A stretch of DNA of 35,190 nucleotides from IMG/VR virus record IMGVR_UViG_3300050821_005564, positions 1 to 35,190 of that record; one strand, given 5' to 3'. A program made the position numbers and the translations under genes. A model generated the notes under the pieces. It did no database searches. It was not told the DNA's origin and saw only the letters and a program-made list of their open reading frames with translations. This stretch comes from a virus. This document shows positions 3,145 to 21,772 of the stretch, piece after piece. Position 1 is the first letter of the stretch. Each line of letters starts with the position of its first letter.

Positions 3145-3819
3145 ATGGCCCTAGCTTACTCAACTATTGCAACTGCTCTTGGACCGACCGACACCAGCGT
3201 AACGCTGACCAGCGCGACGGGCATTAGCGTCTCGAACTACCAGGGCGTAGGCAGCACCGGAACCGTTTCCGGAGGCGCTATCACATATCTGCTCATCGAG
3301 CAGGAAATGGTGCAGCTCGTCAGTGGGACAAATCCCTACGCCATCAAGCGTGGAATGATGGGCACTCGCGCGATGCCGCACGCTGCGCTTACTCCGTTTA
3401 CCTTTGGAACTAACGTTGACTTCCTGAACTTTGTTCCAGCCACGAAACAAACTTCAGCGGTGCTGCCGGAACAGAGCGCTACTGGCTTATCGGCTTCGGT
3501 CGTTTCGGCTGCTTCCATCATTGCCAGCGGCCCTATCTTCCGCACCACAGGCACTGTGGCAATGACCAACATGCTTCCGCCGTCTTCAGCCAACCTAGGA
3601 AGCTCCGGGCCAAACTCAGAAGAGAATTACGTCAACGGAACCCAGGTTACAATCATCTTTGCGGGATCCGCCGGAGGGTTGACTTGGACTGCGGCCGGCG
3701 GCGGCACTGGACCGGCATTTGCCGTTGCAGGCACGGCCACTACGGCCCTGTCTTGTGTGACTTTCGTTCTGGATGGATCAAGCGGAGCACAGCTCTGGTA
3801 TCCATCAAGGCTGGCATAA
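3145..3819 (+). CDS. Head-associated virion protein, unknown function
   Basis: The 224-residue protein follows coat by 10 bases with an AAGGAG site. The N-terminal 80 residues (T-S-V-T-L-T, then E-Q-E-M-V-Q and R-G-x-x-G-T) have a beta pattern seen in many small phage head or neck proteins that bind edges of the capsid. The rest is Ser/Ala/Gly-rich and beta-like. It could be a decoration protein or a fibre-like head protein. No family is recognised with certainty. Confidence 0.7.
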   Translation: MALAYSTIATALGPTDTSVTLTSATGISVSNYQGVGSTGTVSGGAITYLLIEQEMVQLVSGTNPYAIKRGMMGTRAMPHAALTPFTFGTNVDFLNFVPATKQTSAVLPEQSATGLSASVVSAASIIASGPIFRTTGTVAMTNMLPPSSANLGSSGPNSEENYVNGTQVTIIFAGSAGGLTWTAAGGGTGPAFAVAGTATTALSCVTFVLDGSSGAQLWYPSRLA

Positions 3820-5079: not shown

Positions 5080-5811
5080 GTGAAAGGCGTCGATCTCTTG
5101 CAGAGCGCGGCGCGTCTAGCTGGCATTCTAGCCTCTGGCGAGAATCTCGTCGGCAATGAGCCTGCCGACTGCTTGATGATTCTTCAGCAGATGATGGACG
5201 AATGGCAGGCCGATGGCCTGAAGATTTTCACCGACAACATCAACATATTCCCGTTTGTTCTTGGCACGCAGACTTACACGCTGGGTACTGGCGGCAATTT
5301 CAACATTCAGCGACCGACCAAGATTACGCGCATGGGCTGCCAGATCCTCAGCAATCCAACCCAGCCAAGTGAAGTGCCCATTGCGTTGCTGGATACCGAT
5401 GGCTGGGCCAATGTGCGGGTCAAAAACATCTCCGGAAGCTACCCTTTGTTCTGCTATGACGATGGAGCCTTCCCGCTAAGAAATTTGAATTTCTGGGTCA
5501 TTCCCGGCCTAGCATGTAACCTTGTACTATACTCCTGGCAGCCGCTTTCAACTTGGCCAGACCTTGCAGTAACCGATGTCACTTTCCCGCCAGCCTATTT
5601 GCAGGCCATCCGGTACAACCTGGCCGTATATCTGGCTCCGGAGTTCGGAGTGCAAATCGCTCCGGAGATTATGCTGAAGGCCGCCGAATCGTTGTCGGCG
5701 CTGAAAGACATTAATCTGCCAGCACCGATTCTGAAGTGCGATCCCGGGCTAAGTGGAACAGGTGCGAGCGTGTACGATTGGCGCAGCGATACATTTATTG
5801 TGAGGCGATAA
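5080..5811 (+). CDS. Head-to-tail adaptor, P22 gp4-like tail accessory factor
   Basis: The 243-residue protein starts at GTG. It has the adaptor pattern: N-terminal helices with A-A-R-L-A-G-I-L-A-S-G-E and L-x-x-M-M-D-E-W-Q-A-D-G-L near residues 8-48, then a F-V-L-G-T-Q-T-Y-T-L-G strand near 59-70, an I-T-R-M strand, and the W-P-D-L / F-P-P-A-Y-L-Q-A-I-R-Y-N-L-A helix near 160-185. In P22, gp4 binds under the portal and holds the gp10 hub. The gp10-like gene follows, with one tiny gene between, matching the P22 order. Other gp4 homologues are shorter (about 166 residues), so this one is extended. Confidence 0.82.
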   Translation: MKGVDLLQSAARLAGILASGENLVGNEPADCLMILQQMMDEWQADGLKIFTDNINIFPFVLGTQTYTLGTGGNFNIQRPTKITRMGCQILSNPTQPSEVPIALLDTDGWANVRVKNISGSYPLFCYDDGAFPLRNLNFWVIPGLACNLVLYSWQPLSTWPDLAVTDVTFPPAYLQAIRYNLAVYLAPEFGVQIAPEIMLKAAESLSALKDINLPAPILKCDPGLSGTGASVYDWRSDTFIVRR

Positions 5812-5946: not shown

Positions 5947-8325
5947 TTGGCAAGGTTCGACTTCTGCGGGGGAAGTTACACAGCGCAGGCCGTAAATGCC
6001 GACTGCCAGAGGTGTGTCAATCTCTATCCCGAAGTCAATGAATCAGGCGACGGGCGCAGCAAGATGGTGCTGAACCCAACTCCGGGAATAGCTAAGATCG
6101 CCGCTTTTGGAGGGTCTCCTCGGGGGCAGCTGGAGTACAATGGCCGCCTTTTTGTCGTAGCCGACACACAGCTTTATGAGATTACACAAACAATAGGCGG
6201 AACGGGCATGCCTATCGTCGTGTCTACCGCCGTCAGAGGCACGAATTTGGCCAACGATGGACTGCCGGCGTCGATGGCTGCCAGCCAGACGCAACTCTTA
6301 ATTGCTTCCGGAGGGTCAGTATATCTGCTCATTCTAGCCACCAATGCATTCAGCCAAGTTGCGGCAACGAATTTCACGCTTGCAACCGGCCCGGCCCCAG
6401 TCAAGCAGGTAGCGTTCTGCGATTCGTTTTTTTTGGCTTTGATTGCCAATTCGGGAACGGTTTGTATTTCAAATGTCTTTGACGCCTCGAGCTGGAACCT
6501 GAATGGGCAAATCGTTGTCAGTGTTTTCCCGGAAAACATTGTGGGGATGAAGGTAGATCACCGGCAATTGTGGCTGAGAGGCAACAAAAAGACTGTCGTG
6601 TATTATGCTTCGGGATCCATCAACGTTTTCGATGTGGTTCCCGGAGGGTTTATCGAACAAGGCGGAGCTGCGGCATTTGCCTGTGACTCCGTGGACAATT
6701 CGATCTTTTGGATTGGCCAGGATGATAAGGGAGACCGCGTTGCGTGGCGCGCGACAGGCTACAATGCCTCGAGAATCTCGACCCATGCCACGGAGCTAGC
6801 TTGGCAGAAGTATCCCAAGGCTTCTGACGCTGTCAGTTATGCATATCAACGCTTTGGCCATTCCTTTTGGGTGGTTCTCTATCCCTCGGCCAATAATGGA
6901 AATGGAGCTACCTGGGTCTACGATGTGGCGACCAATCTTTGGCATGAAAGAGATTTCCTTAACGAGACTTCCGGCGCCAGCATGGGACACCCCAGCTGGA
7001 ACCATTCTTTCTGGAATGGGACACACATTGTGGGGGATTGGCGATCCTCGAATCTCTATCAAATGGACGACAGTTTCCTGACAAACGCCGGTGTTCCAAT
7101 TGTCAGAGTTCGCCGAGCTCCGCACATCTCAACCGAACTTGAGGTGATGAAGCACACACGCTTTGAACTGGACATGGAGACTGGCCTGGGCCCGGAACCA
7201 CCGCTGCAAACAGGTGGAGGAACGCCAACAGTACTGACGCTCCAGGATAGCAGCGCTGGGTTGTGGGCACTGACCGTCAAAGATACGGGACTGCTGCAAA
7301 CTGCGCAAATACAGGCTTCCAACACTTTGGCTACGGATACGTTCACAAGGGCTAACGAAAACCCGCTGAATCCGGCAAACTGGTCGATTCTGGTTGGTTC
7401 TGGCCTGCAAATTGTAAGCAATACGTGCCGATCTGCCACGACCTCGCTTAGCGGAGAGCTTTACACCGGCGTTGTGTTTCCAAGCGACCAGTTCTGCCAG
7501 GTGCAGGCAGCGTCTGTAAATAATGCCGATGTCTATAGCATTTTGCTGATTCTGCGTGGCACGGATACCTCCAATTACAGTATGGCCGTTGTGGGCGTTC
7601 CAGGCACTCAGACTGTCAGTATTTTCAAGAATGTGGCAGGAGTCAACAATACGCTGGCAGGGCCTGTCGCCATCACCGTGGCAAATGGCGATGTGTTCAA
7701 ATTTACAGCCGTCGGTACGCAGTTGACCGGCTATCGAAACGGAGTGCAAGTCTGTTCAGCGGTTGATGGAAGCATCGTTTCTGGAAAGCCAGGCTTGAGC
7801 ATTTTTTCCAACCCGGCCACCGATGTTCAGCTTACGAATTTCTCAGCGGGAGGTGCCACCGGCGCCGGACCAGCTATATTTCTGAACATTGGAGCATCCA
7901 CTTGGCAGCTAGGTGTCACGACCGCCGGGCTTCTCACGACCACAAATGTAGCTTTCAGTGCCAGCAACCCTACGATAATCACCATGGTAGCGCCAGGCTC
8001 GGCATGGGATTTAAGCGTTACATCCGCGGGGCTGTTGCAGACCTCGCAGAACTTCACAACCTTTGCTAGAGGACCTCTTGTCTGGCTGAGATTCTCAGAT
8101 GACGGTGGCCACACTTGGTCTAATGCCCAGCCGCGCGATGCCGGGCAAGCAGGCCAGTACAAAGTAAGGGTGAGATGGGCACGACTTGGCCGGGCGCGGA
8201 TCCGAACGTATGAAATCAGTTGTTCAGATCCTATTGCGTTCAGAATTGTCGATGCGTATGTGAACAGCCAGCCAGGTTACGCGCCGAGCGAGCGACTAAC
8301 GCGCCAATATCAAAAAGTTGCGTGA
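5947..8325 (+). CDS. Tail hub / DNA-stabilisation protein, P22 gp10-like, with inserted lectin-like domain
   Basis: The 792-residue protein starts at TTG behind AGGGAG. Residues 1-420 follow the gp10 pattern: C-V-N-L-Y-P-E near 27, T-P-G-I, W-L-R-G-N-K-K-T-V-V-Y-Y near 206, and W-x-Y-D-x-x-T-x-x-W-H-E-R. The end (about 705-790) has L-R-F-S-D-D-G-G-H-T-W and R-W-A-R-L-G-R-A-R, also typical. P22 gp10 is about 470 residues; the excess is an insert at about 428-705. The insert holds a concanavalin/LamG-like module (D-T-F-T-R-A-N-E-N-P-L near 462, to about 640) flanked by three copies of a W-x-L-x-V...G-L-L-x-T repeat. The hub plugs the portal and carries the spikes; the insert may bind sugars. 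Confidence 0.82.
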   Translation: MARFDFCGGSYTAQAVNADCQRCVNLYPEVNESGDGRSKMVLNPTPGIAKIAAFGGSPRGQLEYNGRLFVVADTQLYEITQTIGGTGMPIVVSTAVRGTNLANDGLPASMAASQTQLLIASGGSVYLLILATNAFSQVAATNFTLATGPAPVKQVAFCDSFFLALIANSGTVCISNVFDASSWNLNGQIVVSVFPENIVGMKVDHRQLWLRGNKKTVVYYASGSINVFDVVPGGFIEQGGAAAFACDSVDNSIFWIGQDDKGDRVAWRATGYNASRISTHATELAWQKYPKASDAVSYAYQRFGHSFWVVLYPSANNGNGATWVYDVATNLWHERDFLNETSGASMGHPSWNHSFWNGTHIVGDWRSSNLYQMDDSFLTNAGVPIVRVRRAPHISTELEVMKHTRFELDMETGLGPEPPLQTGGGTPTVLTLQDSSAGLWALTVKDTGLLQTAQIQASNTLATDTFTRANENPLNPANWSILVGSGLQIVSNTCRSATTSLSGELYTGVVFPSDQFCQVQAASVNNADVYSILLILRGTDTSNYSMAVVGVPGTQTVSIFKNVAGVNNTLAGPVAITVANGDVFKFTAVGTQLTGYRNGVQVCSAVDGSIVSGKPGLSIFSNPATDVQLTNFSAGGATGAGPAIFLNIGASTWQLGVTTAGLLTTTNVAFSASNPTIITMVAPGSAWDLSVTSAGLLQTSQNFTTFARGPLVWLRFSDDGGHTWSNAQPRDAGQAGQYKVRVRWARLGRARIRTYEISCSDPIAFRIVDAYVNSQPGYAPSERLTRQYQKVA

Positions 8326-8581: not shown

Positions 8582-8931
8582 TGGAATACAGGTTACTCAG
8601 ATACGAGGAGTGGGATCGAGCGGAAAGCTCGCTAGAGACTTTTGGCCAAAGACTTCCTTCAAAGGAAAATTCCATGCTGTCGGTAGCTGAACATGACGGG
8701 CAGATAGCTGGGATTCTTTGCTTCCATCCCGTTCTGCACGGAGAGCCGTTTTGGGTGCATGAAAGTTACCGCGGGCAAGTGGATATTAGGAAACTTCAAG
8801 CTTCTCTAGTCTCGGCACTCCCTCAAGGTCTTGAGTATTATGCTTTTACCCCTAGCCGCAAGATGCGATGGGTAGCTGGAACCTGCGGCATGAAGCTTCT
8901 GCCATGGGATGTCTGGAAGGGCATAGTCTGA
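8581..8931 (+). CDS. Hypothetical protein, possibly GNAT-like
   Basis: The 116-residue protein starts in the TAATG overlap; a longer upstream reading exists but would overlap the previous gene for 180 bases. It has strands resembling an acyltransferase core (M-L-S-V-A-E-H-D-G-Q-I-A-G-I-L-C-F-H) and a short helix. It lacks a clear acetyl-CoA loop (Q/R-x-x-G-x-G/A). Small acyltransferase-like proteins do sit among tail and ejection genes in related phages. The fold call is weak. Confidence 0.6.
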   Translation: MEYRLLRYEEWDRAESSLETFGQRLPSKENSMLSVAEHDGQIAGILCFHPVLHGEPFWVHESYRGQVDIRKLQASLVSALPQGLEYYAFTPSRKMRWVAGTCGMKLLPWDVWKGIV

Positions 8932-9683
8932 TGCCTCCACTACAGATACTTTCCGGAATTCTTGGATCGTCGGCAGCGGCCAATGCTCAGGCCGGGGCAG
9001 CCAATAACGCTGCAAAGCTCCAATACAATCTTGGCGAGCAGGCTCTTAATCAGAATCAGTCGCAATTCAACACTACGCAGCAGAATATTGCTCCATGGCT
9101 GCAAGCTGGCACTCAGGGCGTAAACTCCTTAGCGTCGCTGCTCTCAAATCCAGGGCAGGGGCTTTTAACTCCTTGGACACAGCAATTCAACGCTCCCACC
9201 GCGGCTCAGGCGCAAGCGACTCCGGGTTATCAGTTTGCCCAGCAACAGGGCCAAAACGCCATCCAGAACAGCGCCGCGGCCCAAGGCGGCCTTCTATCTA
9301 CCGGAGCGCAGAAAACCCTTGATCAGTACTCACAAGGGTTAGCCGATTCTACGTATCAACAGACCTACAACAATGCCCTGACGCAGTATCAGCAGAGTTA
9401 CAACATTTTCCAAGGAAACCAGACAAACACTTTTAACAGGTTAGCGGCGCTGAGCGGAGCAGGACAGACAGCCGCTCAGAATCTGGGACAACTTAGCCAG
9501 CAAGCAAGCAACACGAATGCGAACATTTCAGGGACCACCGGCCAACAGGTAGGCGGATCCATGATGGCGGCTGGCGCGGCAAACGCTTCGGGGTATGCCG
9601 GAATCGCCAACGCCGTGAATGGCGGAATCAATAGCATCAACCAGTTTGCGATGCTTTCCAGTCTCCTTGGGGGCGGTGGCTGA
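8931..9683 (+). CDS. DNA ejection protein, P22 gp7-like
   Basis: The 250-residue protein begins in a TGATG overlap. It is rich in Ala, Gln, Asn, Gly and Ser. It contains the conserved ejection pattern P-G-Y-Q-F-A-Q-Q-Q-G-Q-N-A-I-Q-N-S-A-A-A followed by G-G-L-L-S-T-G and Y-x-Q-G-L-A-D-S-T-Y-x-x-x-Y-N near residues 95-150, and a Gly/Ala-rich hydrophobic end. Such proteins are packed in the head and injected to build a conduit across the cell envelope. It heads a run of three probable ejection genes. Confidence 0.75.
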   Translation: MPPLQILSGILGSSAAANAQAGAANNAAKLQYNLGEQALNQNQSQFNTTQQNIAPWLQAGTQGVNSLASLLSNPGQGLLTPWTQQFNAPTAAQAQATPGYQFAQQQGQNAIQNSAAAQGGLLSTGAQKTLDQYSQGLADSTYQQTYNNALTQYQQSYNIFQGNQTNTFNRLAALSGAGQTAAQNLGQLSQQASNTNANISGTTGQQVGGSMMAAGAANASGYAGIANAVNGGINSINQFAMLSSLLGGGG

Positions 9684-11212
9684 TGGGCGGATTCCCGGCT
9701 CTCCAAATTAATAATCAGCAACCATCGCCTATCGCGGAGTATGCCCAAATCGAGCAAATCAAGGCCAGTCAGCAGCAGCAGCAAGCTACGGCATTGCAAA
9801 TAAAGCAGGAGCAGCAGAACTTGACAGACCAACATGCCGTAACACAAGCCATGCTGAATTGGGATGGCAAAGATCCTAACTCACTCGCCATGGGAGTCCT
9901 TAGAAATGGTGGTTCTGGCCAAGCTGTCTTTGGCGTGACACAAAAACTCCTAGCAACCAAGCAGGCCATAGGCGAGATCGCCAAAAATGATTCCATCACC
10001 GCCCAGAACAACGCCGAAACGATGGCCAAGCAAAACGATGCCTACCGCGGCCGGTTGTTGAACATCGCCGGAATTAAAGATCCTGCTGCCCAACAAACCG
10101 CTTGGGACAATGAGGTCACAAAAGAAGAACAGGCAGGAACCGTCAAGCCGGGCCAAATGTCGCATACCTACCCAGGGAACGAGCAAGCCACTATCCTCGC
10201 TAACAGCTTTGCCGTTGGCAGCCAATTGGTCAAGGAAGCCCAAGAGCGGCAAAAAATGTCTCTCGAGGCTTGGAAGCCTTCTGGCGGGACGCTGGTAAAT
10301 GCCATCACTGGAGAACGCATCGGCGGAATCGATCCTAGCCAAATTCCGCTTATCAACAAAGGCTTCGACGCTCGCTATCAAGTACTGCATCCCGGAGAAA
10401 CCGCGCCAGACTATTTCCAGTTGAAGCCCGGAGCATCGCCAACGGACTTTGACCGGGTGGACAAGCTTCTGGAAGCCACGGAGAAAGGAGCAGCAACAAA
10501 GGCCCAGCAAGATATAGTCAACGCCATGCGTTCGCAAACCTTCGAACTCCAACGCGACAAAACGGACATGAACCCCGTTGTCGGAACAGACAAAAACGGC
10601 CGTCAAGTTCTTGCGCCGCTGAGCCAGGCACAGCAGGCAGGCGTACAAAACCCCATGAAAGCCGATGCCGACATGGTGAACAAAGCTCTTGCTGCCCGGC
10701 ATTGGTTGTCGCTAGCCAACACACAGGCTCCGGCCGACGCCAAGCCGGAAGAGATGGGCATCATGCAGCTGGTCGATAAACTGGATTCTGAAGGAAAGCT
10801 TGGGAAGGTAGCCAGCCGGTGGAACGAGTTCATGGCTGGAAAAGTTGGTGCTGGCGACCCTGATGTGGCAGCTTTGCGGGCCAAGATGGGACTTTCAACG
10901 ACCTTGCTCATGCAGGCGCACGTTGGCTCAAGAGGTTCCGCGCAAATGCTTGAGCATTTCGAGGACTTGGCCAACCAAAAGAAACTCGATGGTCCAACAC
11001 TGAAAGCGGCATTAGGTGCCGAAGTGAATTACGTGCAAGACAAAGCCATGGACCCTAATCCGCCGGATTACAGCAAAGTCAAGGGGAAATCGGCTAAGCC
11101 GGAACTGCAATCGAAGCCCCCCGCGGGAGCTACGCATAAAGTGCAAGGCCCTGACGGGAAAATGCACTATACAAACGCCCAGGGAACGGTAGACATGGGG
11201 ATTGTGCCATGA
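9683..11212 (+). CDS. Probable internal virion / DNA ejection protein
   Basis: The 509-residue protein starts in a TGATG overlap. It is helical, Gln/Lys/Ala-rich, with a Q-Q-Q-Q-Q patch near residue 34, coiled coil in the first 60 residues, and a long charged middle. No catalytic domain is visible. It lies between the gp7-like gene and another hydrophobic, Gly-rich gene, the place of gp20/gp16 in P22. It likely travels in the head and enters the cell with the DNA. Confidence 0.6.
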   Translation: MGGFPALQINNQQPSPIAEYAQIEQIKASQQQQQATALQIKQEQQNLTDQHAVTQAMLNWDGKDPNSLAMGVLRNGGSGQAVFGVTQKLLATKQAIGEIAKNDSITAQNNAETMAKQNDAYRGRLLNIAGIKDPAAQQTAWDNEVTKEEQAGTVKPGQMSHTYPGNEQATILANSFAVGSQLVKEAQERQKMSLEAWKPSGGTLVNAITGERIGGIDPSQIPLINKGFDARYQVLHPGETAPDYFQLKPGASPTDFDRVDKLLEATEKGAATKAQQDIVNAMRSQTFELQRDKTDMNPVVGTDKNGRQVLAPLSQAQQAGVQNPMKADADMVNKALAARHWLSLANTQAPADAKPEEMGIMQLVDKLDSEGKLGKVASRWNEFMAGKVGAGDPDVAALRAKMGLSTTLLMQAHVGSRGSAQMLEHFEDLANQKKLDGPTLKAALGAEVNYVQDKAMDPNPPDYSKVKGKSAKPELQSKPPAGATHKVQGPDGKMHYTNAQGTVDMGIVP

Positions 11213-12405
11213 GCAGCGCTCCGCAACCTCTTTTCGACATGAGCAAAGCCGTTCCTTTGTTCGATATGTCGAAGGCGGAAGCTCTTGATCAGACTCCGCC
11301 AACTCCCGGAGTCGTACCAGGCAATAGAATCCCTCCGGAAATGAGAGGACATCCGGAAGAAGGACTGGACTGGAGCGATGTCAAATCGCATAGCAAAGCC
11401 GTCCTGGAATTAGCTGGAGGAGCGGCCGGCGGGGAGATTTCGGCAGCAAGAGGCCTGTTTGGAGCTCTTGTGCGCATGCTTGGCACTGGGATTGGGGCTG
11501 GAACTGGAAACGCCATAGGGCAAGAAGCAACCTCGGGAACAGTAGATCCTGTAGAGGCGGCTAAAACAGCAGGGAGTTTCGCTGCCGGCGGGGCGCTGGG
11601 AGAATTCGGAGCGAGTCTTCCGGCCTTGAAAAGTTCGCTAAGCCGGTTGATGTATACCCCCGAAGGGGAATTGTCTCCGCTGGCCAAGGCTGTTGTGCAC
11701 CCGACGGAGTTGCCTGAGCAGTTGCTTCGCAAGGTGATTCCTGAACCCACATCGGCTACAGGATTAACGAAAGCTGAGCAAGACGCCCTCGAACAAAAGG
11801 GCAGCGATCTAATGAAACGCCAAGCCCAACAGGATGCTCTTGACAGAAAAGCCGCCGCTGCGGCGCGGTTAGCTGCCAAAAATGCTCCTGAAACTCCAGA
11901 GCCTTCGCCGTTCGGCAGTGCCACATCCACGGCCCCTCAGGCACCAAAAGTCATAATGGATAGTCTCGGTATTCGTTGGGCTGTGGCGCCGGACGGAGCG
12001 CGCGTAACTATCCCAAAAGGGATAGCGGACGCCGACATACCGGCCTATGCTGCTCCAAAGCTGGACGAGCAGCGGCAGATCCTTGGCAACATCAAAGGAG
12101 ACATCCCGAAAGGCTCGGCAACGCCATTCGGAGACGCCACCACAACAACAGCCCCGGCAAAGATTGAATATGTGAACAAATTTGGAAAGCAAACGACCGG
12201 AAGCATCGTGGACCCTAGCTCGCCGCCGCCCGATGTAAAGGTGACTTACCAGTCCGTTCCCGGCAAGGAGCTCTATCAGAAGATGATGGGCGGCGATGGA
12301 AACGCGATTAGAGAATGGATGCGTAGAGGCCTCGAGCTGCCTGACAACGTTAAATTTATGGTTGAGGACGCGGGGGCAAAGCCTTGGCGGAACTATCAGA
12401 AATGA
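11209..12405 (+). CDS. Probable internal virion / ejection protein with tandem FDMSKA motif
   Basis: The 398-residue protein starts in an ATGA overlap. The first 25 residues carry two copies of P-L-F-D-M-S-K-A. This short linear motif resembles ones at the start of other podovirus ejection proteins, perhaps a binding or processing signal. Residues about 65-145 are Gly/Ala-rich and could insert into membranes (G-G-A-A-G-G-E, G-T-G-I-G-A-G-T-G-N-A-I-G-Q). The rest is Pro/Ala-rich and charged. A G-I-R-W-A-V-A-P-D-G-A-R-V segment near residue 253 looks like a repeat of a small beta motif. It is the last of the virion block before the signal-peptide genes. Confidence 0.6.
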   Translation: MSSAPQPLFDMSKAVPLFDMSKAEALDQTPPTPGVVPGNRIPPEMRGHPEEGLDWSDVKSHSKAVLELAGGAAGGEISAARGLFGALVRMLGTGIGAGTGNAIGQEATSGTVDPVEAAKTAGSFAAGGALGEFGASLPALKSSLSRLMYTPEGELSPLAKAVVHPTELPEQLLRKVIPEPTSATGLTKAEQDALEQKGSDLMKRQAQQDALDRKAAAAARLAAKNAPETPEPSPFGSATSTAPQAPKVIMDSLGIRWAVAPDGARVTIPKGIADADIPAYAAPKLDEQRQILGNIKGDIPKGSATPFGDATTTTAPAKIEYVNKFGKQTTGSIVDPSSPPPDVKVTYQSVPGKELYQKMMGGDGNAIREWMRRGLELPDNVKFMVEDAGAKPWRNYQK

Positions 12406-12446: not shown

Positions 12447-13694
12447 ATGACAGTGGCGACAATGTACAGGGCTAGTTGGATCATAAAGGCCTCTAGAGCA
12501 ATACTGCTCTTGCTGGTCGTGTTTGGCTATAGTACCGCCGTCTTAGCCCAAGTGGCTGTGGCCCCTAGCCCGGTAGCTAAGCAGCAATTTTTTGGTGTAA
12601 ATGGGGCGCCGCTGGCCTCCGGATGCATCTTTACCTACATTTCCACGACAAGCACGCCTTTGGCAACCTATTCGGACTATACCGGCACGGCCCTCAATCC
12701 CAACCCAATAATCCTCGATAGCGGCGGATTTGCCTCCATCTGGCTGTCGAATGCCACATATCGCTTTGTGCTGGTTTCAGCTGGCGGCGTGAACTGTGCA
12801 TCAGGAGTGACGCAATACACAATTGACGGCATTTCAGCGTATACCATCGTGAACAGTCCGCAGAACCTCTTCTTGCTTGGCGCGACCTCTGATCCTGGCG
12901 GGACGGCCGGAGAACTGGCCTACCGCACAGACATTCCCTGCTTCCGGGGATTCACAGCTTTCTGGGACTGCTTTGTGACGCAGACAGCCACACAGACGCT
13001 GACCAATAAAACGCTGACCGCGCCGATCATTAATACTCCGACAATCATCACGCCAACTATTTCTACTCCCATTGTTAACGGCGCGGCGACAGGCACTGGC
13101 ATTCAGGGTACAGGCGCTAAACTTATGAGTTCTGGCGTAATCTCTGGAACGCTTGCTGCCCCGCTTTGCCTTGACGCCCAATCTGGAGCTACGACTACTG
13201 GCTGTGCACCAACAAACGGCGCCGCGGCTGGCTGCACAGCTATCGGCCCTGTCACGATCACAAACAACAATGCGGCGCAGAACTTGCTTTCCTGCTCTGT
13301 CCTAGCGAATGCGCTTTCAGCTGGAAGTCTATTAAATGTTGATCTTACAGGAGTAGTCAGTTCCGCTGCTGGCCAGACCATTACGATTTCCATGAGTCTT
13401 GGCGGTGGGACAGCTTGCGCGGCTACCTACTCAGCGGGAATAGCCAACTTCCAGCCATTCAACTACGTGGCTAAATTCTCGGTAATTACTTCCGGCGCCG
13501 GAGGGACGGCCAATATCAGTTGTGAAATCTTCGGACCTGGCGCGGCAGTAGCGGGAAACAATGGGGTAGTGGGGCTTCCGACTATTTCAGTGAACACAAC
13601 GATAAACAACACCTTGCTGATTACCGAGCAGATGGGCACGCTCAATGCGGGTAACAGCGTCACGGGGCAATTGCTGAAGGGAGTTGTGTTTTGA
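12447..13694 (+). CDS. Tail-fibre-like protein with N-terminal secretion signal
   Basis: The 415-residue protein begins with a basic start and a hydrophobic core (A-I-L-L-L-L-V-V-F-G) ending in A-V-L-A/Q, a good Sec signal with cleavage after residue 34. Residues about 48-115 match the domain found at the start of many fibres and spikes (N-G-x-P-L-A-S-G...T-Y-S-D...N-P-N-P-I-I-L-D-S-G-G...I-W-L). Residues about 175-205 have the fibre repeat T-L-T-N-K-T-L-T-A-P-I-I-N. The C-terminus is a beta-rich tip. I count 10 Cys, unusual for a protein folded in the cytoplasm. It could be a virion fibre with a hydrophobic anchor or a truly exported protein. Confidence 0.75.
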   Translation: MTVATMYRASWIIKASRAILLLLVVFGYSTAVLAQVAVAPSPVAKQQFFGVNGAPLASGCIFTYISTTSTPLATYSDYTGTALNPNPIILDSGGFASIWLSNATYRFVLVSAGGVNCASGVTQYTIDGISAYTIVNSPQNLFLLGATSDPGGTAGELAYRTDIPCFRGFTAFWDCFVTQTATQTLTNKTLTAPIINTPTIITPTISTPIVNGAATGTGIQGTGAKLMSSGVISGTLAAPLCLDAQSGATTTGCAPTNGAAAGCTAIGPVTITNNNAAQNLLSCSVLANALSAGSLLNVDLTGVVSSAAGQTITISMSLGGGTACAATYSAGIANFQPFNYVAKFSVITSGAGGTANISCEIFGPGAAVAGNNGVVGLPTISVNTTINNTLLITEQMGTLNAGNSVTGQLLKGVVF

Positions 13695-15322
13695 TTAAAA
13701 GATTTATTCTTGGCTTGGCGATGCTGATTGGCCTCTTTGCCATTACCACGGTTGAGATGTGGTTCAGCAAATCGCCAGAGGCGCGAGCCCAAACCAACAT
13801 TTTTTGCGCTGAAAATCTAGCTTGCACGGTTACCGGGATTTGGACCTTTAGTACCGCTCCGGTATTCAGTGCTTCGCCGGTGTTCTCGGCAGGAATAGGG
13901 GCAAACGCTTTTAACGGGCCATCCCCATGGGCTGATGTAACGAGCCCTCCATTTGGAGCCAAATGCGATGGCGTCACAGACGACACTACAGCCGTGCAGG
14001 CAGCCATAAACTCAGTTGCCAGATTCCAAAGCGGGTCAGGATCGCTCAATGGAGGCACGGTCTTCATCCCACCCAACAAGAATGCCTGCTTAGTATCCAC
14101 GTTGAATCTCGACAACACTATCAATGTGACGATCATGGGGCCGGGCTTCGCGCAAGGCTCTTCCGGGACCAACACAGCAACGATAAAGTTTACAGGTACT
14201 TGCGTTGGAGCGGCGTGCTTATCATCGAGGTCGGCTGTAGGGCTTACGTTTATCGGCGTACAACTGCTATTCTCTGGAGCTACAGCCGGCCCCATGTGGG
14301 ATATGAAACACTGCGCGGCGGGAGCTGGATGCGTCGGCAACGATGCCAACAATATCTCCTGCCATGCCTGCACCATTGGCGGACCGGGAGTGACCATAGG
14401 GCCAATCATCAATGCTGAGCAGGTCGATTTCGTATCTTTTGACAACTGGACAGTCTTTGAAAATGCCAGCGTATTCATCACCGGACCTACAAACAACGCG
14501 GAGTTTAGCGATCACGTGGTCTTTGACAAAGTGGAATTCAATACCTACGCAACATCGGCAATACAGAATGCCAGCGTCGATTGGTCCTGCACGCACTGCT
14601 ATTCGAACCCCAACAGCGGGTCTACCGGAGTGCCTTTCCTGAGCTATACGGGAGGCTACAATTCCATGCAGGACCTTTCCATTGCCTTTAGCACAATATT
14701 TGTGGCCAATTCTTCTTCCTCAAATGCGTTTACCGCCATTTCTGTTCCGACTGTAACCGGAGGATTTGGGGGCCTGAACGTCATCAGTAGTCTGATTTCG
14801 GAGCCCGCCGGATCAACCAACGGAATCCCAATCACAATAGGGAACGGACAGTACCTGACCTCGCAAGGAAACACTTTCAGTTCCTGGGGAACGGCATACG
14901 CTTTCGGCACCAACGATACGGTAAGCATAGGATCGAATCTATATTCCAACGTGTCGGCGCTGAATTCCGGTACTCCGGCATTCGGAACAGTGCAGAATCT
15001 AGCCGGGCAGACTTCTCTTTACGGGACTTTGACGGCTGGCGGGACTGTTCCAGTACTTACCGGGACAGGGGCTTGCGCGACGATTACGACGCAGCATGGC
15101 GGAGCTTTTGCCGGCGATGCGAAATGCACCGGAGTCACTGGAGCGAGCACGCTGACAATCACCTTCCCAACAGCTCCGAACGGCTATGTTTGCGATGTGT
15201 GGGACGAAACAACCAGGGCAAATGTGTTCGAGCAAACCTCGCACAGCCCAACGACTTGCGTTTTGACCGTGACTTCGGTTACGGCAAACGATGTGTTTGT
15301 ATTCAAAGCGGTGGCCTATTAA
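13691..15322 (+). CDS. Pectate-lyase-like tailspike protein with N-terminal secretion signal
   Basis: The 543-residue protein starts at TTG in a TTGA overlap. Residues 4-20 are hydrophobic and A-R-A/Q at 31-34 fits a signal peptidase site. Residues 82-108 carry the classic beta-helix spike start (D-V-T-S...F-G-A-K-C-D-G-V-T-D-D-T-T-A-V-Q-A-A-I-N), followed by G-G-T-V-F-I-P-P, the pattern of the Pectate_lyase_3 fold. The C-terminal 70 residues resemble a fibre tip (G-Y-V-C-D-V-W-D...T-T-C-V-L-T). I count 16 Cys, several in C-x-x-C pairs. Such spikes bind or cut surface polysaccharide. Export would be odd for a virion part. Confidence 0.8.
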   Translation: MIKRFILGLAMLIGLFAITTVEMWFSKSPEARAQTNIFCAENLACTVTGIWTFSTAPVFSASPVFSAGIGANAFNGPSPWADVTSPPFGAKCDGVTDDTTAVQAAINSVARFQSGSGSLNGGTVFIPPNKNACLVSTLNLDNTINVTIMGPGFAQGSSGTNTATIKFTGTCVGAACLSSRSAVGLTFIGVQLLFSGATAGPMWDMKHCAAGAGCVGNDANNISCHACTIGGPGVTIGPIINAEQVDFVSFDNWTVFENASVFITGPTNNAEFSDHVVFDKVEFNTYATSAIQNASVDWSCTHCYSNPNSGSTGVPFLSYTGGYNSMQDLSIAFSTIFVANSSSSNAFTAISVPTVTGGFGGLNVISSLISEPAGSTNGIPITIGNGQYLTSQGNTFSSWGTAYAFGTNDTVSIGSNLYSNVSALNSGTPAFGTVQNLAGQTSLYGTLTAGGTVPVLTGTGACATITTQHGGAFAGDAKCTGVTGASTLTITFPTAPNGYVCDVWDETTRANVFEQTSHSPTTCVLTVTSVTANDVFVFKAVAY

Positions 15323-15323
15323 C

Positions 15324-17150
15324 ATGCGAAAACTACTAATCCTTTTGCTTTTACCTTCGACCCTGCTGGCCCAGACACAGATTGGCGGGTCCAGCTCAGG
15401 CGGGGGCATCACGCAGGTAAGCTCGCTGCCAGGGAGCTGTACGGCTACAAGCGGACCCGTTCAACTCACGGTTGCGCCATTCGGTGTTTATGTGCCCTTC
15501 TTTAACGCCGGTGTATGCAGCTATGTGCTGGATGCGCAGCTTGGAGGGCCCATCCTTCCTGCCAGTTTAGGGGTAAAAGCCAATTGGCAAGTCACTTCTA
15601 CCGGCAGTGAGTTTACGGTCACAAGCGCCTCGAATATCGTCACCTGCACCACTTGCAACTTCACCACGACCGCCGCAATTGGCATGGAATTGTTTGCCAC
15701 GAACTGGACTGGATTTGATAATAACTACCCCACAGCAGTGGCAGTCATCGGTCAAGGAACCACCACGCCGGTAACGATCAGCTCGGTGGACAGCAACACG
15801 CAGGTGCACATCTCGGCAAGCGCCACAGGCAACGCAGGAACCACAAACTCAAACAATGGGACGCTGGCTTGGGGGTCGGACGACACGGCGGCATGGCATC
15901 TCGCTAAAGTAGCTGCTTTCGATGGGTTCTCCTGTTTGGCGCTCAATCCGCCAACAGGATTTACAAATTTGAACAATGGTGAATTTCAATCTGCTCCCTG
16001 CCACGGCGTTTCTGGCGGAGCAATCACTTCAAAATACCCTTCCATCACCGGCACCGGCATGGGCGGGAACATGACCTTTATCATTCCGCCGTGGTTCAAC
16101 GTGGCTGGCGGAACCTCTGGCTGCACTGTCGGGACGGGAGCAAGTTGTTTCGGCAACATCGGCCAGTGGGACAAAGTTACGTTCAACGGCTTCGGGCAAC
16201 ACACCTTAGGCATGTCTTCTAGTCCACTGTTCAGGACCGGGAACGACGGAACTTATACGAATTTGGCCTTTTTCGGACTCGGAGACTCGACGACAAACGT
16301 CAGCATTCAAGGCGGGTATCACATCATTTCTAATTGGATTGTGGACGGAGTAGGGTCCGGGCTGGGTGTGGGGGCTGTCAATGCTCATGGCGGCGTGTAT
16401 AGCATTTTTTCAGGGAACAATTCCGGCTCAAATTCACTAAACATCACTGGCGGGGCCGTGTTCAACTGCAACGGCTGCGCGTGGTTTTCCAGTGCAGTTG
16501 CCGGGCCTGCTGTGCTGATAAATAGCGGTTCCTTTTATTATGACGATGGCGGATCGTGCATCCTTGGAACAAACAATTCGTCGTGTTTCTCTGTTACGGG
16601 ACAATTATTTCTCACTAAGTTTGCTACCGGAATCAACTCTAACACCGGGTCGAGCGTCTACAACGTAGCCTCGGGAGGTAAAGCCTTCCTGCACGACAAT
16701 GTATTCAATTCGAGTGGAGCAGGTTCGAACTGCGGCAGCGTGAATGCGGCTGGCACGGTAGTGGACACTGGCGGAAATTCCTACACCTGCACGACTCTCG
16801 GCTACGCTCCAACGATCACGGCCACAGGTTTTGGGACTGGAACGATCACGCTTGATTCCGGCATCAATACCGCCGAACGCGCCAAGTTTACAATTACGCC
16901 GGCAGGTTCGCCGACAGCTACAGGAACAATCGTTTACACGTTCACGCAAACCTACACAATCACTGGTCAGCCGCCCGATTGTCATCTTGAACTAGGCAAT
17001 GGCACAGAGGCTTGGACGGCGCCCGTTACCGTACTTAAAACCAGCATTCTTTTGTGGACAACGACCTCTGTTAGCTGGTCGTGGACGGCAGGCGGGGCGC
17101 CAGGCACGACAGGAACGCTGTCAGGGAGCATCGAATGCTCGCCGCGATAG
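15324..17150 (+). CDS. Beta-helix spike-like protein with secretion signal
   Basis: The ATG at 15324 was chosen because it opens directly with a short signal (M-R-K-L-L-I-L-L-L-L-P-S-T-L-L-A/Q, cut after residue 16); an in-frame start 33 bases upstream would spoil this. The 608-residue protein is Gly/Ser/Thr/Asn-rich. A W-G-S-D-D-T-A-A-W-H-L-A-K motif near residue 190 resembles the spike D-D-T-x-A motif. A long repetitive beta region follows, with an Ig-like end rich in T-G-T. I count 16 Cys, many spaced as C-x-x-C. It probably is a paralogue in design of the previous spike. No catalytic residues can be assigned. Confidence 0.72.
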   Translation: MRKLLILLLLPSTLLAQTQIGGSSSGGGITQVSSLPGSCTATSGPVQLTVAPFGVYVPFFNAGVCSYVLDAQLGGPILPASLGVKANWQVTSTGSEFTVTSASNIVTCTTCNFTTTAAIGMELFATNWTGFDNNYPTAVAVIGQGTTTPVTISSVDSNTQVHISASATGNAGTTNSNNGTLAWGSDDTAAWHLAKVAAFDGFSCLALNPPTGFTNLNNGEFQSAPCHGVSGGAITSKYPSITGTGMGGNMTFIIPPWFNVAGGTSGCTVGTGASCFGNIGQWDKVTFNGFGQHTLGMSSSPLFRTGNDGTYTNLAFFGLGDSTTNVSIQGGYHIISNWIVDGVGSGLGVGAVNAHGGVYSIFSGNNSGSNSLNITGGAVFNCNGCAWFSSAVAGPAVLINSGSFYYDDGGSCILGTNNSSCFSVTGQLFLTKFATGINSNTGSSVYNVASGGKAFLHDNVFNSSGAGSNCGSVNAAGTVVDTGGNSYTCTTLGYAPTITATGFGTGTITLDSGINTAERAKFTITPAGSPTATGTIVYTFTQTYTITGQPPDCHLELGNGTEAWTAPVTVLKTSILLWTTTSVSWSWTAGGAPGTTGTLSGSIECSPR

Positions 17151-17482
17151 TCCTTCTCCTGCAACTGCATTTCGTTAGGCCGCATTTTCCGAGTATTGCG
17201 GAACGCCAAAGCTGCGGCTGCACGGTCCTTCCTCCGTACTTGGGGAATTTCACTATTCCTAAGAACGGGCAGTACCGCTTGGATTACAAGAATTTCTATC
17301 CCGGACAATTTGATGGGAAAACAGTGATCGCGGCGCCTCCGGAGATCATGGAGCATGAAGATTACGGCCTTCCGAACAAGACCCCAATCTATGTCGTAGA
17401 TGAGTCTTACGATCACATCACCGTGAAGTCGAAACCGGGCACTACATGGTGGTACAAAATTTATCTGGCGGTGCCAAAATGA
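17135..17482 (+). CDS. Small protein with hydrophobic N-terminus, probably secreted or anchored
   Basis: The 115-residue protein overlaps the spike gene by 16 bases and the next gene by ATGA. It opens with M-L-A-A-I-V-L-L-L-Q-L, a short hydrophobic segment without a clear cleavage site. A C-G-C motif lies near residue 29, and the rest is a Tyr/Pro-rich small domain ending in strands (T-T-W-W-Y-K-I-Y-L). No family is recognised. Its place inside a run of signal-bearing genes suggests an envelope location. Confidence 0.6.
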   Translation: MLAAIVLLLQLHFVRPHFPSIAERQSCGCTVLPPYLGNFTIPKNGQYRLDYKNFYPGQFDGKTVIAAPPEIMEHEDYGLPNKTPIYVVDESYDHITVKSKPGTTWWYKIYLAVPK

Positions 17483-18402
17483 AACGACTTCTATTCCTAT
17501 TGCTGTGGGCTGGGCCACTGCTCGGCCAAACAATTACGACCCAGCCTGTTTCTCAGACAGTGCAGGTTGGCGCCGTGGCTACGTTCACAGTGACAGCGAG
17601 CGCTGGTCCATGCAGGTCATTTTGGCTCATCAACGGAGCAGGGCATTACGGCTCTGTAGCCTCAACGATTTCTTACTCGCTGCCTCCCGCCACCCTGGCG
17701 ATGAACGGCTGGCAAATTCAAGTAGAACTCTATGGCTGCGCCGGCGGCGGAGCGAATCTCAACTCCAACACCGTAACCCTGACCGTTACTCCGTCGGTCA
17801 CGCTCAGTTCCATAGCGATTACCACGCCTTCTCCGATCATCGGGATCGGGCAGACCGACTCGCTGACCGCTACCGGCAGCTACAGCGACGGCTCAACGCA
17901 GAACCTCACCTCTGCGGCTACGTGGGCTTCGAGCGCAGCTACTATAGCTTCGGCATCTGGCGGAACTGTCCTGGGCCTCACTCTAGGGACAACGAATGTA
18001 ACCGCGACGGTAGGAAGCTTGTCAGCTTCGACGACCGTTACGGTCGAACCCTCTTTGGGCATCACGTTCACGCCGACGAATGAAGACGGCACAATTCCTG
18101 TCGCGCAGCTGGTCGTCAATCAAATCGTGCTGAACTCCGATGGCACACAGACAGCAACGCCAGTCTTGACGCTGCCCGACCCTGGCGGCGCTACCAGCAG
18201 TTCGCTGCTCTACAATCCTGCGGTCCTGTACGATGCAATATTCTTTTTGAACAATCAATCGGTGGGGCAGCCGCTGGTATTTTCTCCGGTGCTGATGTCC
18301 GTTATGATGCCGAAGATCAAATCCATGAGTTACAGCGTGGTTTTATGCGTCTCCACTTGTCCGGCGGGAGCCATCAAGTCGATGAGCTTTGTGGCCCAAT
18401 GA
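17479..18402 (+). CDS. Secreted protein with Ig-like and Big_2-type domains
   Basis: The start at 17479 forms an ATGA overlap and gives a clean signal (M-K-R-L-L-F-L-L-L-W-A-G-P-L-L-G/Q, cut after residue 16). Residues about 18-104 look like an Ig-like domain (T-T-Q-P-V-S-Q-T-V-Q-V-G-A-V-A-T-F-T-V). Residues about 107-190 match the bacterial Ig-like group 2 pattern (L-S-S-I-A-I-T-T...G-S-Y-S-D-G-S-T-Q-N-L-T...T-V-T-V). The last 115 residues are a separate beta-like domain. Such domains mediate adhesion on cell surfaces and on virions. The product is 307 residues. Confidence 0.75.
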   Translation: MKRLLFLLLWAGPLLGQTITTQPVSQTVQVGAVATFTVTASAGPCRSFWLINGAGHYGSVASTISYSLPPATLAMNGWQIQVELYGCAGGGANLNSNTVTLTVTPSVTLSSIAITTPSPIIGIGQTDSLTATGSYSDGSTQNLTSAATWASSAATIASASGGTVLGLTLGTTNVTATVGSLSASTTVTVEPSLGITFTPTNEDGTIPVAQLVVNQIVLNSDGTQTATPVLTLPDPGGATSSSLLYNPAVLYDAIFFLNNQSVGQPLVFSPVLMSVMMPKIKSMSYSVVLCVSTCPAGAIKSMSFVAQ

Positions 18403-18701
18403 GACGCATCTCGCTAGTGCTGCATGTTCCGATCACGGTGGAAATCGACACCGATATGATTACCGCTGTTGATGGCAGCAAGATTTCCGGGATTCCTTTG
18501 ACGCACAGAGAGCGCCAGGTGCTGAATTTGGTCTGTCAAGGCAAGCAGAACAAAAACATTGCCGCCGAGCTGAATCTGTCGGTAAGCACCATCAAGTTTC
18601 ACATATCCAGCATCCTTGAAAAGTATGAATGTTCCGGCCGAGCGGAACTGGCTCTGCGGTTGCAGCCTTTAGTGACTGACACCACGGTGAGCGTCCAGTG
18701 A
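18399..18701 (+). CDS. LuxR-type (GerE) helix-turn-helix regulator
   Basis: The 100-residue protein starts in an ATGA overlap. Residues about 33-85 form a full LuxR/GerE DNA-binding domain: L-T-H-R-E-R-Q-V-L-N-L-V-C-Q-G-K-Q-N-K-N-I-A at the first helices, then L-N-L-S-V-S-T-I-K-F-H as the recognition helix, then I-L-E-K-Y. There is no receiver or signal-binding domain, only about 30 N-terminal residues of beta character. A free LuxR domain at the boundary of spike and lysis genes is a candidate late regulator of phage genes or a modulator of host transcription. Confidence 0.88.
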   Translation: MRRISLVLHVPITVEIDTDMITAVDGSKISGIPLTHRERQVLNLVCQGKQNKNIAAELNLSVSTIKFHISSILEKYECSGRAELALRLQPLVTDTTVSVQ

Positions 18702-19589: not shown

Positions 19590-19769
19590 ATGAAAACTTA
19601 CCAGATAGTTTCGGACACCGGCGAGTTGGTGGCGATGCTGACTTGCGACGGGCTGCTTTTTGATTTTGACCATCAGCAAGAGCACGTCATCCCGGCGGAC
19701 GGTGTGCAAGCAGTGCGATTGATTTTAGGCGACGGCTTCAAAATGGAGGAATGTGCAGTTAACTCTTGA
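19590..19769 (+). CDS. Hypothetical small protein
   Basis: The 59-residue product begins at ATG (M-K-T-Y-Q-I). A TTG start at 19548 with a better GAGGAG site would add 14 basic residues; the choice is open. It has a strand-rich, acidic-middle sequence and no known family. It overlaps the next start by 17 bases. Confidence 0.55.
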   Translation: MKTYQIVSDTGELVAMLTCDGLLFDFDHQQEHVIPADGVQAVRLILGDGFKMEECAVNS

Positions 19770-20142
19770 GCGTTTCAATTTCACGGACAAGAGCACGATT
19801 GGCTCGCTGGCAATCGACGAAAAACCATTCTGCTGGACGCTAGAACTTCCGATTGGCGACGGTGGCCCCGGTAGCGCCATTCCTGCGGGAACCTACAAGG
19901 TGGTGACGTACCCCTCGCCAAAGTTTGGCAGGCTAATGCCCTTGCTTGTGGATGTGCCGGGGCGCAGTAACATCGAGATGCATTGGGGAAACTCTCCGGA
20001 GGATACCGACGGCTGCATTCTGCTAGGAAACTCAATGCCTGGCACGGATTACATCGGCAATTCCCGCATCGCTTTTGACGACTTTTGGGAGCAGGCGCAA
20101 GGCTCGATGGAGCGCGGCGAATGTGCTATCACGGTTAAATAA
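19753..20142 (+). CDS. DUF5675 family protein, candidate wall-active protein
   Basis: The 129-residue protein starts at GTG behind GGAGGA. It follows the DUF5675 pattern: F-T-D-K-S-T-I-G-S-L near residue 11, W-T-L-E-L-P, then A-I-P-A-G-T-Y-K-V near 42-50, S-P-K-F-G-R, and H-W-G-N-S-P-E-D-T-D-G-C-I-L-L-G near 76-92. The spaced His and the D-G-C-I element resemble the H...S-x-G-C-I-R signature of YkuD L,D-transpeptidases, which would suit peptidoglycan work. That link is inference. It sits among membrane proteins in the probable lysis region, where no classical endolysin is found. Confidence 0.75.
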   Translation: MQLTLERFNFTDKSTIGSLAIDEKPFCWTLELPIGDGGPGSAIPAGTYKVVTYPSPKFGRLMPLLVDVPGRSNIEMHWGNSPEDTDGCILLGNSMPGTDYIGNSRIAFDDFWEQAQGSMERGECAITVK

Positions 20143-21178: not shown

Positions 21179-21392
21179 GAAGCATATTGAACAGCTTGAA
21201 AAAGAACTCAGCGAGTTAAAGTCTGCAATGCTCGCTTTTTCCTTGATACAGAAGGTGACATTCATTCCCCAACCCTACCCGGTCTACCTGCCACTGCCGC
21301 AGCCTGTTTACGGTCAGCAGCAGATTACTCCGTGGAGCCCACAAGTCTATCCGATCATCACCTGCCAAGCCACTTCCGGGAGGACGCAATGA
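21159..21392 (+). CDS. Coiled-coil protein with Pro/Tyr/Gln tail
   Basis: The 77-residue protein has a strong GAGGAG site and overlaps the HNH gene by 20 bases. Residues 2-25 form a Lys/Glu/Leu heptad coil. The rest is Pro/Tyr/Gln-rich and probably flexible. No family is recognised. Confidence 0.6.
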   Translation: MTKKQLEKHIEQLEKELSELKSAMLAFSLIQKVTFIPQPYPVYLPLPQPVYGQQQITPWSPQVYPIITCQATSGRTQ

Positions 21393-21772
21393 AAAGAACG
21401 GCAGTATTTGTACTTGCTCTTGCGCTATCGCTGTCTGGCTGCGCTGCGCAGAAAGTCCATCCAGGCGCAGCTAATAGCTTTGACTCGGCTGCGTATGATT
21501 CGTTGCTCGTGGCCCATTCGATCATAGAAACCACGAAGCAAGAACTCTCGACCAGCGCCACGTACCCGGCCAGCATCGCTCCAGGAGTGCGCAACACGCT
21601 CGCCTACCTGATCGACAGTTACGACGTGGCGCAAAGGGCGTACATGATCTATCATGCCGCAGCCATGAACGGCACAGCCACCACACAGCAATCCGACACA
21701 GTAAGCGCAACCCTCGCCGATGTGAGTGCCAAGACTACGGCCCTGACAGCGGCGAAGAACGGAAAGCCATGA
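21389..21772 (+). CDS. Lipoprotein, possible outer-membrane spanin
   Basis: The start at 21389 (ATGA overlap) gives a lipoprotein signal: M-K-R-T-A-V-F-V-L-A-L-A-L-S-L-S-G-C, with lipobox L-S-G-C and Cys at residue 18. The mature part is a helical Ala/Thr/Ser-rich domain of about 110 residues. Phage lipoproteins in the lysis block often are outer-membrane spanin subunits, but those are usually shorter and Pro-rich. A superinfection-exclusion lipoprotein is an alternative. Confidence 0.75.
   Translation: MKRTAVFVLALALSLSGCAAQKVHPGAANSFDSAAYDSLLVAHSIIETTKQELSTSATYPASIAPGVRNTLAYLIDSYDVAQRAYMIYHAAAMNGTATTQQSDTVSATLADVSAKTTALTAAKNGKP

Follow-up and report, generated by a model that had tools for sequence, protein, structure and literature searches.

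The window, a 35,190-base IMG/VR virus record that was compared with relatives from metagenomic contigs, carries a row of genes (12447-18402) which, judging from their sequences, probably encode virion spikes that are exported through Sec, bonded by disulfides and joined to the particle at lysis. Predicted export, pairing of the cysteines and homology to tailspikes are well supported by the sequence comparisons; the attachment of the spikes at lysis is what we infer.

All genes of the row lie on the plus strand. Spike 1 (12447..13694, 415 aa, 10 Cys) begins with a predicted Sec signal peptide of 34 aa (12447..12548, MTVATMYRASWIIKASRAILLLLVVFGYSTAVLA/Q, site AVLA/Q, the slash marking the predicted cut), immediately after which starts a P22-type head-binding domain (12549..12866) with a predicted Cys60-Cys117 pair. 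Spike 2 (13691..15322, TTG start, 543 aa, 16 Cys) has a less certain predicted signal peptide of 33 aa (13691..13789, MIKRFILGLAMLIGLFAITTVEMWFSKSPEARA/Q, site EARA/Q), and spike 3 (15324..17150, 608 aa, 16 Cys; 17 Cys in a longer form called by the ORF tool from 15291) has one of 16 aa (15324..15371, MRKLLILLLLPSTLLA/Q, site LLA/Q). The signal parts of these three proteins contain zero Cys. The sequence-only reading had pointed to Sec-like N-termini and about 10, 16 and 16 Cys in these three genes, and its coordinates, N-termini and counts proved correct. Its list nevertheless ends one gene early, as the pattern is continued, weakly, by a fourth gene encoding an Ig-like (Big_2) protein of 307 aa with 4 Cys and a weak signal score (17479..18402, MKRLLFLLLWAGPLLG/Q). 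A small ORF (17081-17482) with a hydrophobic stretch, MLAAIVLLLQLHF, and a C-G-C motif overlaps 15324 at its end and 17479 at its start, and directly 3' of the row lies a gene for a LuxR-type helix-turn-helix protein (18345-18701; GerE, E 3e-18), a possible regulator.

Signal peptides were scored with a home-made n/h/c-region scorer, on which a score of 4.0 was attained by about 0.1% of the shuffled N-termini of neighbouring proteins. By this scorer, n-, h- and c-regions and an A-x-A-type site were present, the weakest being 17479 and the site in 13691. Shuffles of the protein's own sequence matched the observed score in 3/2000 cases for 12447, 45/2000 for 13691, 0/2000 for 15324 and 125/2000 for 17479. 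The c-region of 13691 is unusually long, and the scorer puts its cleavage site elsewhere than EARA/Q; the predicted signal peptide is nonetheless supported by two homologues, L135 and L136, which show an A-x-A-type site before the same residues (...AARA/QTNTFC and ...EVQA/QTNTFC).

Spike 1 probably corresponds to the main tailspike of a P22-like short-tailed phage. Its residues 36-155 align with the tailspike N-terminus of Xanthomonas phage PBR31 (39.7% identity), which is apparently a virion-binding domain (PMC10975493), and its gene occupies the slot of the PBR31 tailspike, which follows the genes for internal proteins A, B and C; this slot is fixed by the synteny of the ejection-protein genes. 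Run with hmmsearch against solved structures, a 44-row profile of the head-binding domain matched 7eeq, described as the 'tailspike head-binding domain' of Pam1 (E 5.6e-8), and 9vyg, the tail spike of Pan3 (about 1e-7). For the domain, AF2 gave a model with a pLDDT of 85; every entry at its Foldseek ranks 1-16 was a chain from a podophage tailspike or tail complex (Pan3, Pam1, P22, Sf6), and the same held for VIA-align ranks 1-14, with Z 7.6-10.6 against 6.8 for the row below. The model of full-length 12447 reached a pLDDT of 43, with the C-terminal part at low confidence. The P22-type domain is found in 12447 only, the N-termini of 13691 and 15324 being different.

The structural block runs from the portal end through the scaffold, a coat protein of P22 fold (phrog_283, E 4e-60), a gp4-like tail adaptor (5080..5811, plus strand; phrog_637, weak PF11650), a gp10-like head-closure or hub protein (5947..8325, plus strand; phrog_578, E 1e-87) and ejection-type internal proteins (8868..12405, plus strand; phrog_598, a DNA ejection protein, and two further genes) to the spike row. 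The gp4-like, gp10-like and ejection-type proteins are without signal peptides. Proteins in the ejection slots of the window and of its relatives are almost Cys-free, mostly with 0 per several hundred residues, and the adjoining spikes are Cys-rich. Elsewhere in the window, a DUF5675 protein (19753-20142, E 2e-31) is encoded in the likely lysis region, and a small putative lipoprotein with an LSLSGC lipobox (21332-21772), similar to L048:17760, is an outer spanin candidate. As to the host, a single scan of genome contigs gave Acinetobacter as its sole match, searches of plasmids returned either no match or remote relatives of P22-like coat type (Leptospira, Prescottella), and no tRNA genes were found in the 35,190-base window. 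The ...A/Q style of the signals led us to guess at Acidobacteriota, a guess that was kept out of the evidence.

We then determined how the signal peptide and the added Cys pair are distributed among homologues of the domain. A search with the domain only kept 80 IMG/VR loci, of which 79 were examined: 37 were signal-bearing, 41 were signal-less and one was cut. The Cys pair (near GC.FTY and GG.NC, both displaced together in L065) was present in 37/37 signal-bearing and 0/41 signal-less homologues, and ten GenBank phage homologues (including PBR31, P26218, VvAW1, BA3 and PAE2) had neither signal peptide nor pair. The sequence-only reading took virion spikes to be poor in Cys, which held only in part: some signal-less relatives total 12-16 Cys, but in none of them does the head-binding domain have the paired positions. 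Cys density by itself was rejected as evidence on account of these spikes. In the domain tree, the gain of signal and Cys pair is one switch (support 98/89), so that the contrast of 37 and 41 loci does not amount to 78 independent cases; single-linkage clustering at 60% fused signal-bearing with signal-less proteins through short sequences, and its Fisher value was therefore left unused.

Cys parity is an independent line of evidence. For all proteins of the window and 25 relatives that contain Cys and are 150 aa or longer, with signal status assigned by the home-made scorer, the mature Cys count was even in 72/75 signal-bearing and 63/137 signal-less proteins. Once the set had been dereplicated at 30% identity and a stricter score applied, even counts were seen in 47/50 (p 2e-11) versus 25/55 (Fisher 4e-8). 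The counts span 2 to 26, so the even parity is not one inherited number. Three proteins were exceptions, two in L063 with 13 and 15 Cys and one in L073 with 17, and all four window genes (12447, 13691, 15324 and 17479) have an even count. A preference for even Cys numbers is an established mark of disulfide pairing in exported proteins (PMC7678975, citing Dutton 2008), and the bias in the signal-bearing set bears the signature of exported, disulfide-bonded proteins.

The head-binding domain of the signal-bearing spikes is under strong purifying selection, with a dN/dS of 0.03-0.07 in pairs without synonymous saturation, while the rest of the same spikes gave 0.09-0.29, above the domain in each computable pair. 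Such selection indicates that the domain has kept a binding partner, which would most simply be the virion. This weighs against the proposal, covering two of the four options in the sequence-only reading, that the proteins are free capsule depolymerases or receptor decoys with no virion role, active in the periplasm or outside the cell, either at lysis or earlier. Predicted signal peptides and the disulfide signature would suit such proteins, as would the pectate-lyase-like part of 13691, and an exported enzyme with a tailspike-like beta-helix fold is known in WceF of Pantoea stewartii (PMC7949094); WceF, however, is bacterial, carries a Tat signal, acts on the exopolysaccharide of its own bacterium and is no virion part. 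For a free protein a virion-binding domain would be needless, yet 12447 keeps this domain under selection and in the tailspike slot, and no other candidate for the main tailspike was seen in the window. We regard this reading as unlikely. Export with disulfides and attachment after lysis is the option that was best supported, by even Cys counts, a signal on an ordinary domain and purifying selection.

Internal starts bear on a further possibility, namely that translation from the domain yields a cytoplasmic virion spike and that only a fraction of the product is exported. GTG codons do occur close to the site in several genes, that of the window among them, but no internal start at the domain is conserved, 6/26 homologues are without any near the site, and only one such start has a 4-base Shine-Dalgarno match. 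The Cys pair and the even counts suit the exported form, and dual products seem very improbable.

The signal peptide is predicted to be an addition to an otherwise ordinary head-binding domain. Signal-less homologues have their Met at the domain or a few residues before it (e.g., M-AVVTPTAKSQF), and signal-bearing ones read ...A/Q-V-x-V-x-P where the former begin. An uncleaved hydrophobic N-terminus that serves as an anchor in a membrane or, as in another of the earlier options, in the virion would accord with the long hydrophobic starts and with the placing of the 13691 site away from EARA/Q. It is disfavoured because the hydrophobic parts vary in sequence and length and still close with A-x-A-type sites that hold a constant position ahead of the domain, cleavage there would restore the N-terminus of the signal-less relatives, and the even Cys counts would be left unexplained; we give it very little credence. 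Equally hard to credit is superinfection exclusion by exported proteins that mask the host receptor, for although there are known cases of receptors being blocked by periplasmic proteins of phages (PMC12685063), such as Llp of T5 and Rtp45, those are small lipoproteins, whereas the proteins described here are large and modular, include a virion-binding domain and are encoded consecutively in a structural block.

The remaining genes of the row, and genes of the relatives, widen the set of candidate exported proteins. Phage receptor-binding proteins typically consist of a conserved N-terminal module and swapped C-terminal parts. The N-terminal module of spike 2 (13790..13849, plus strand, QTNIFCAENLACTVTGIWTF) was found in six other phages ahead of differing C-terminal parts; the proteins of all seven phages are signal-bearing with even Cys counts, 14-20 in the six others. 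Spike 2 also gave weak matches to PF12708 and to the pectin lyase 7chu (a beta-helix fold). After its predicted site, spike 3 begins with QTQIGGSSSGGG, which resembles the QTQIGGGGGG found close to the N-terminus of L048_13441. In seven sister phages, a gene near the coat gene has a predicted signal and four mature Cys (L052:1204, L053:1631, L057:28, L066:4863, L067:5685, L071:5541 and L072:3460) and appears to be a second structural slot switched to export; its relatives in the window (3145-3819), L048 and L061 are without a signal peptide and have one or two Cys. The PHROG matches of 3145 were weak and to tail proteins, and from the gene order we would guess that its product is a surface protein. 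By tblastn, neither 13691 nor the coat-adjacent protein of the sister phages matched the GenBank phages. Signal-bearing spikes of pectate-lyase type also occur in phages of other kinds (L011:9791, L012:7491, L026:3802 and L030:9890, with 8, 8, 14 and 10 Cys, respectively), hinting at a convergent origin.

Taken as exported virion parts, the proteins of the row would be the spikes and fibres with which a P22-like phage binds its receptors, made, unlike known relatives, as Sec precursors. Cleavage at A-x-A/Q would leave an ordinary tailspike N-terminus, and the signal peptides, even Cys counts and homology suggest the periplasm as the place where the chains fold and acquire intrachain disulfides, a working host Dsb or VKOR system being assumed. 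Capsids and tail hubs would be assembled in the cytoplasm as usual. As the hub genes 5080 and 5947 are without signal peptides, spike and hub should stay in separate compartments until the inner membrane opens, and the separation points to docking at or after lysis: once the membrane is breached, periplasmic spikes would meet finished heads and dock through the retained, selected head-binding domain onto the gp4/gp10-like hub. The P22 tailspike is the last part added and docks on finished heads in vitro. A likely benefit would be a disulfide-hardened spike outside the cell.

Compared with known systems, spike 1 shares with P22/Sf6-type podophage tailspikes (P22 gp9; Pam1, Pan3 and PBR31) the head-binding domain by profile and fold, a gene position immediately behind the ejection-protein genes of a P22-like structural block, and a more variable C-terminal part. 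It differs in that the examined tailspikes start with Met at the domain, while in spike 1 a predicted Sec signal precedes the domain, a Cys pair is added and the total number of Cys is even. Export of phage proteins by the host Sec system before lysis is known for endolysins (fOg44 Lys44 and the SAR endolysins of P1 and 21; PMC6116005), which are lysis enzymes and not virion parts; no muralytic domain was matched in the four signal-bearing window proteins in Pfam or PHROG. RcGTA was considered as an earlier case of virion parts being exported and rejected, its paper making no mention of any, and no report of exported tailspikes was found in the open-access literature searched.

Tailed-phage virions are taught as being assembled in the cytoplasm. 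If the spikes described here are indeed exported and docked at lysis, the last step of virion assembly would depend on lysis, and virion proteins would be able to use the disulfide machinery of the host periplasm. For annotation, a tailspike with a signal peptide and an even number of Cys would then be a trait and not a gene-calling error. The broader proposal, that tailed phages of one lineage produce their outward-facing parts (the spikes and, in sister phages, the coat-adjacent protein) extracytoplasmically as exported, disulfide-locked proteins that join otherwise complete virions only at lysis, seems to us about evenly balanced on the sequences compared. Spikes made in this way would be a common pool among co-released virions, and co-infecting phages could share them (phenotypic mixing).
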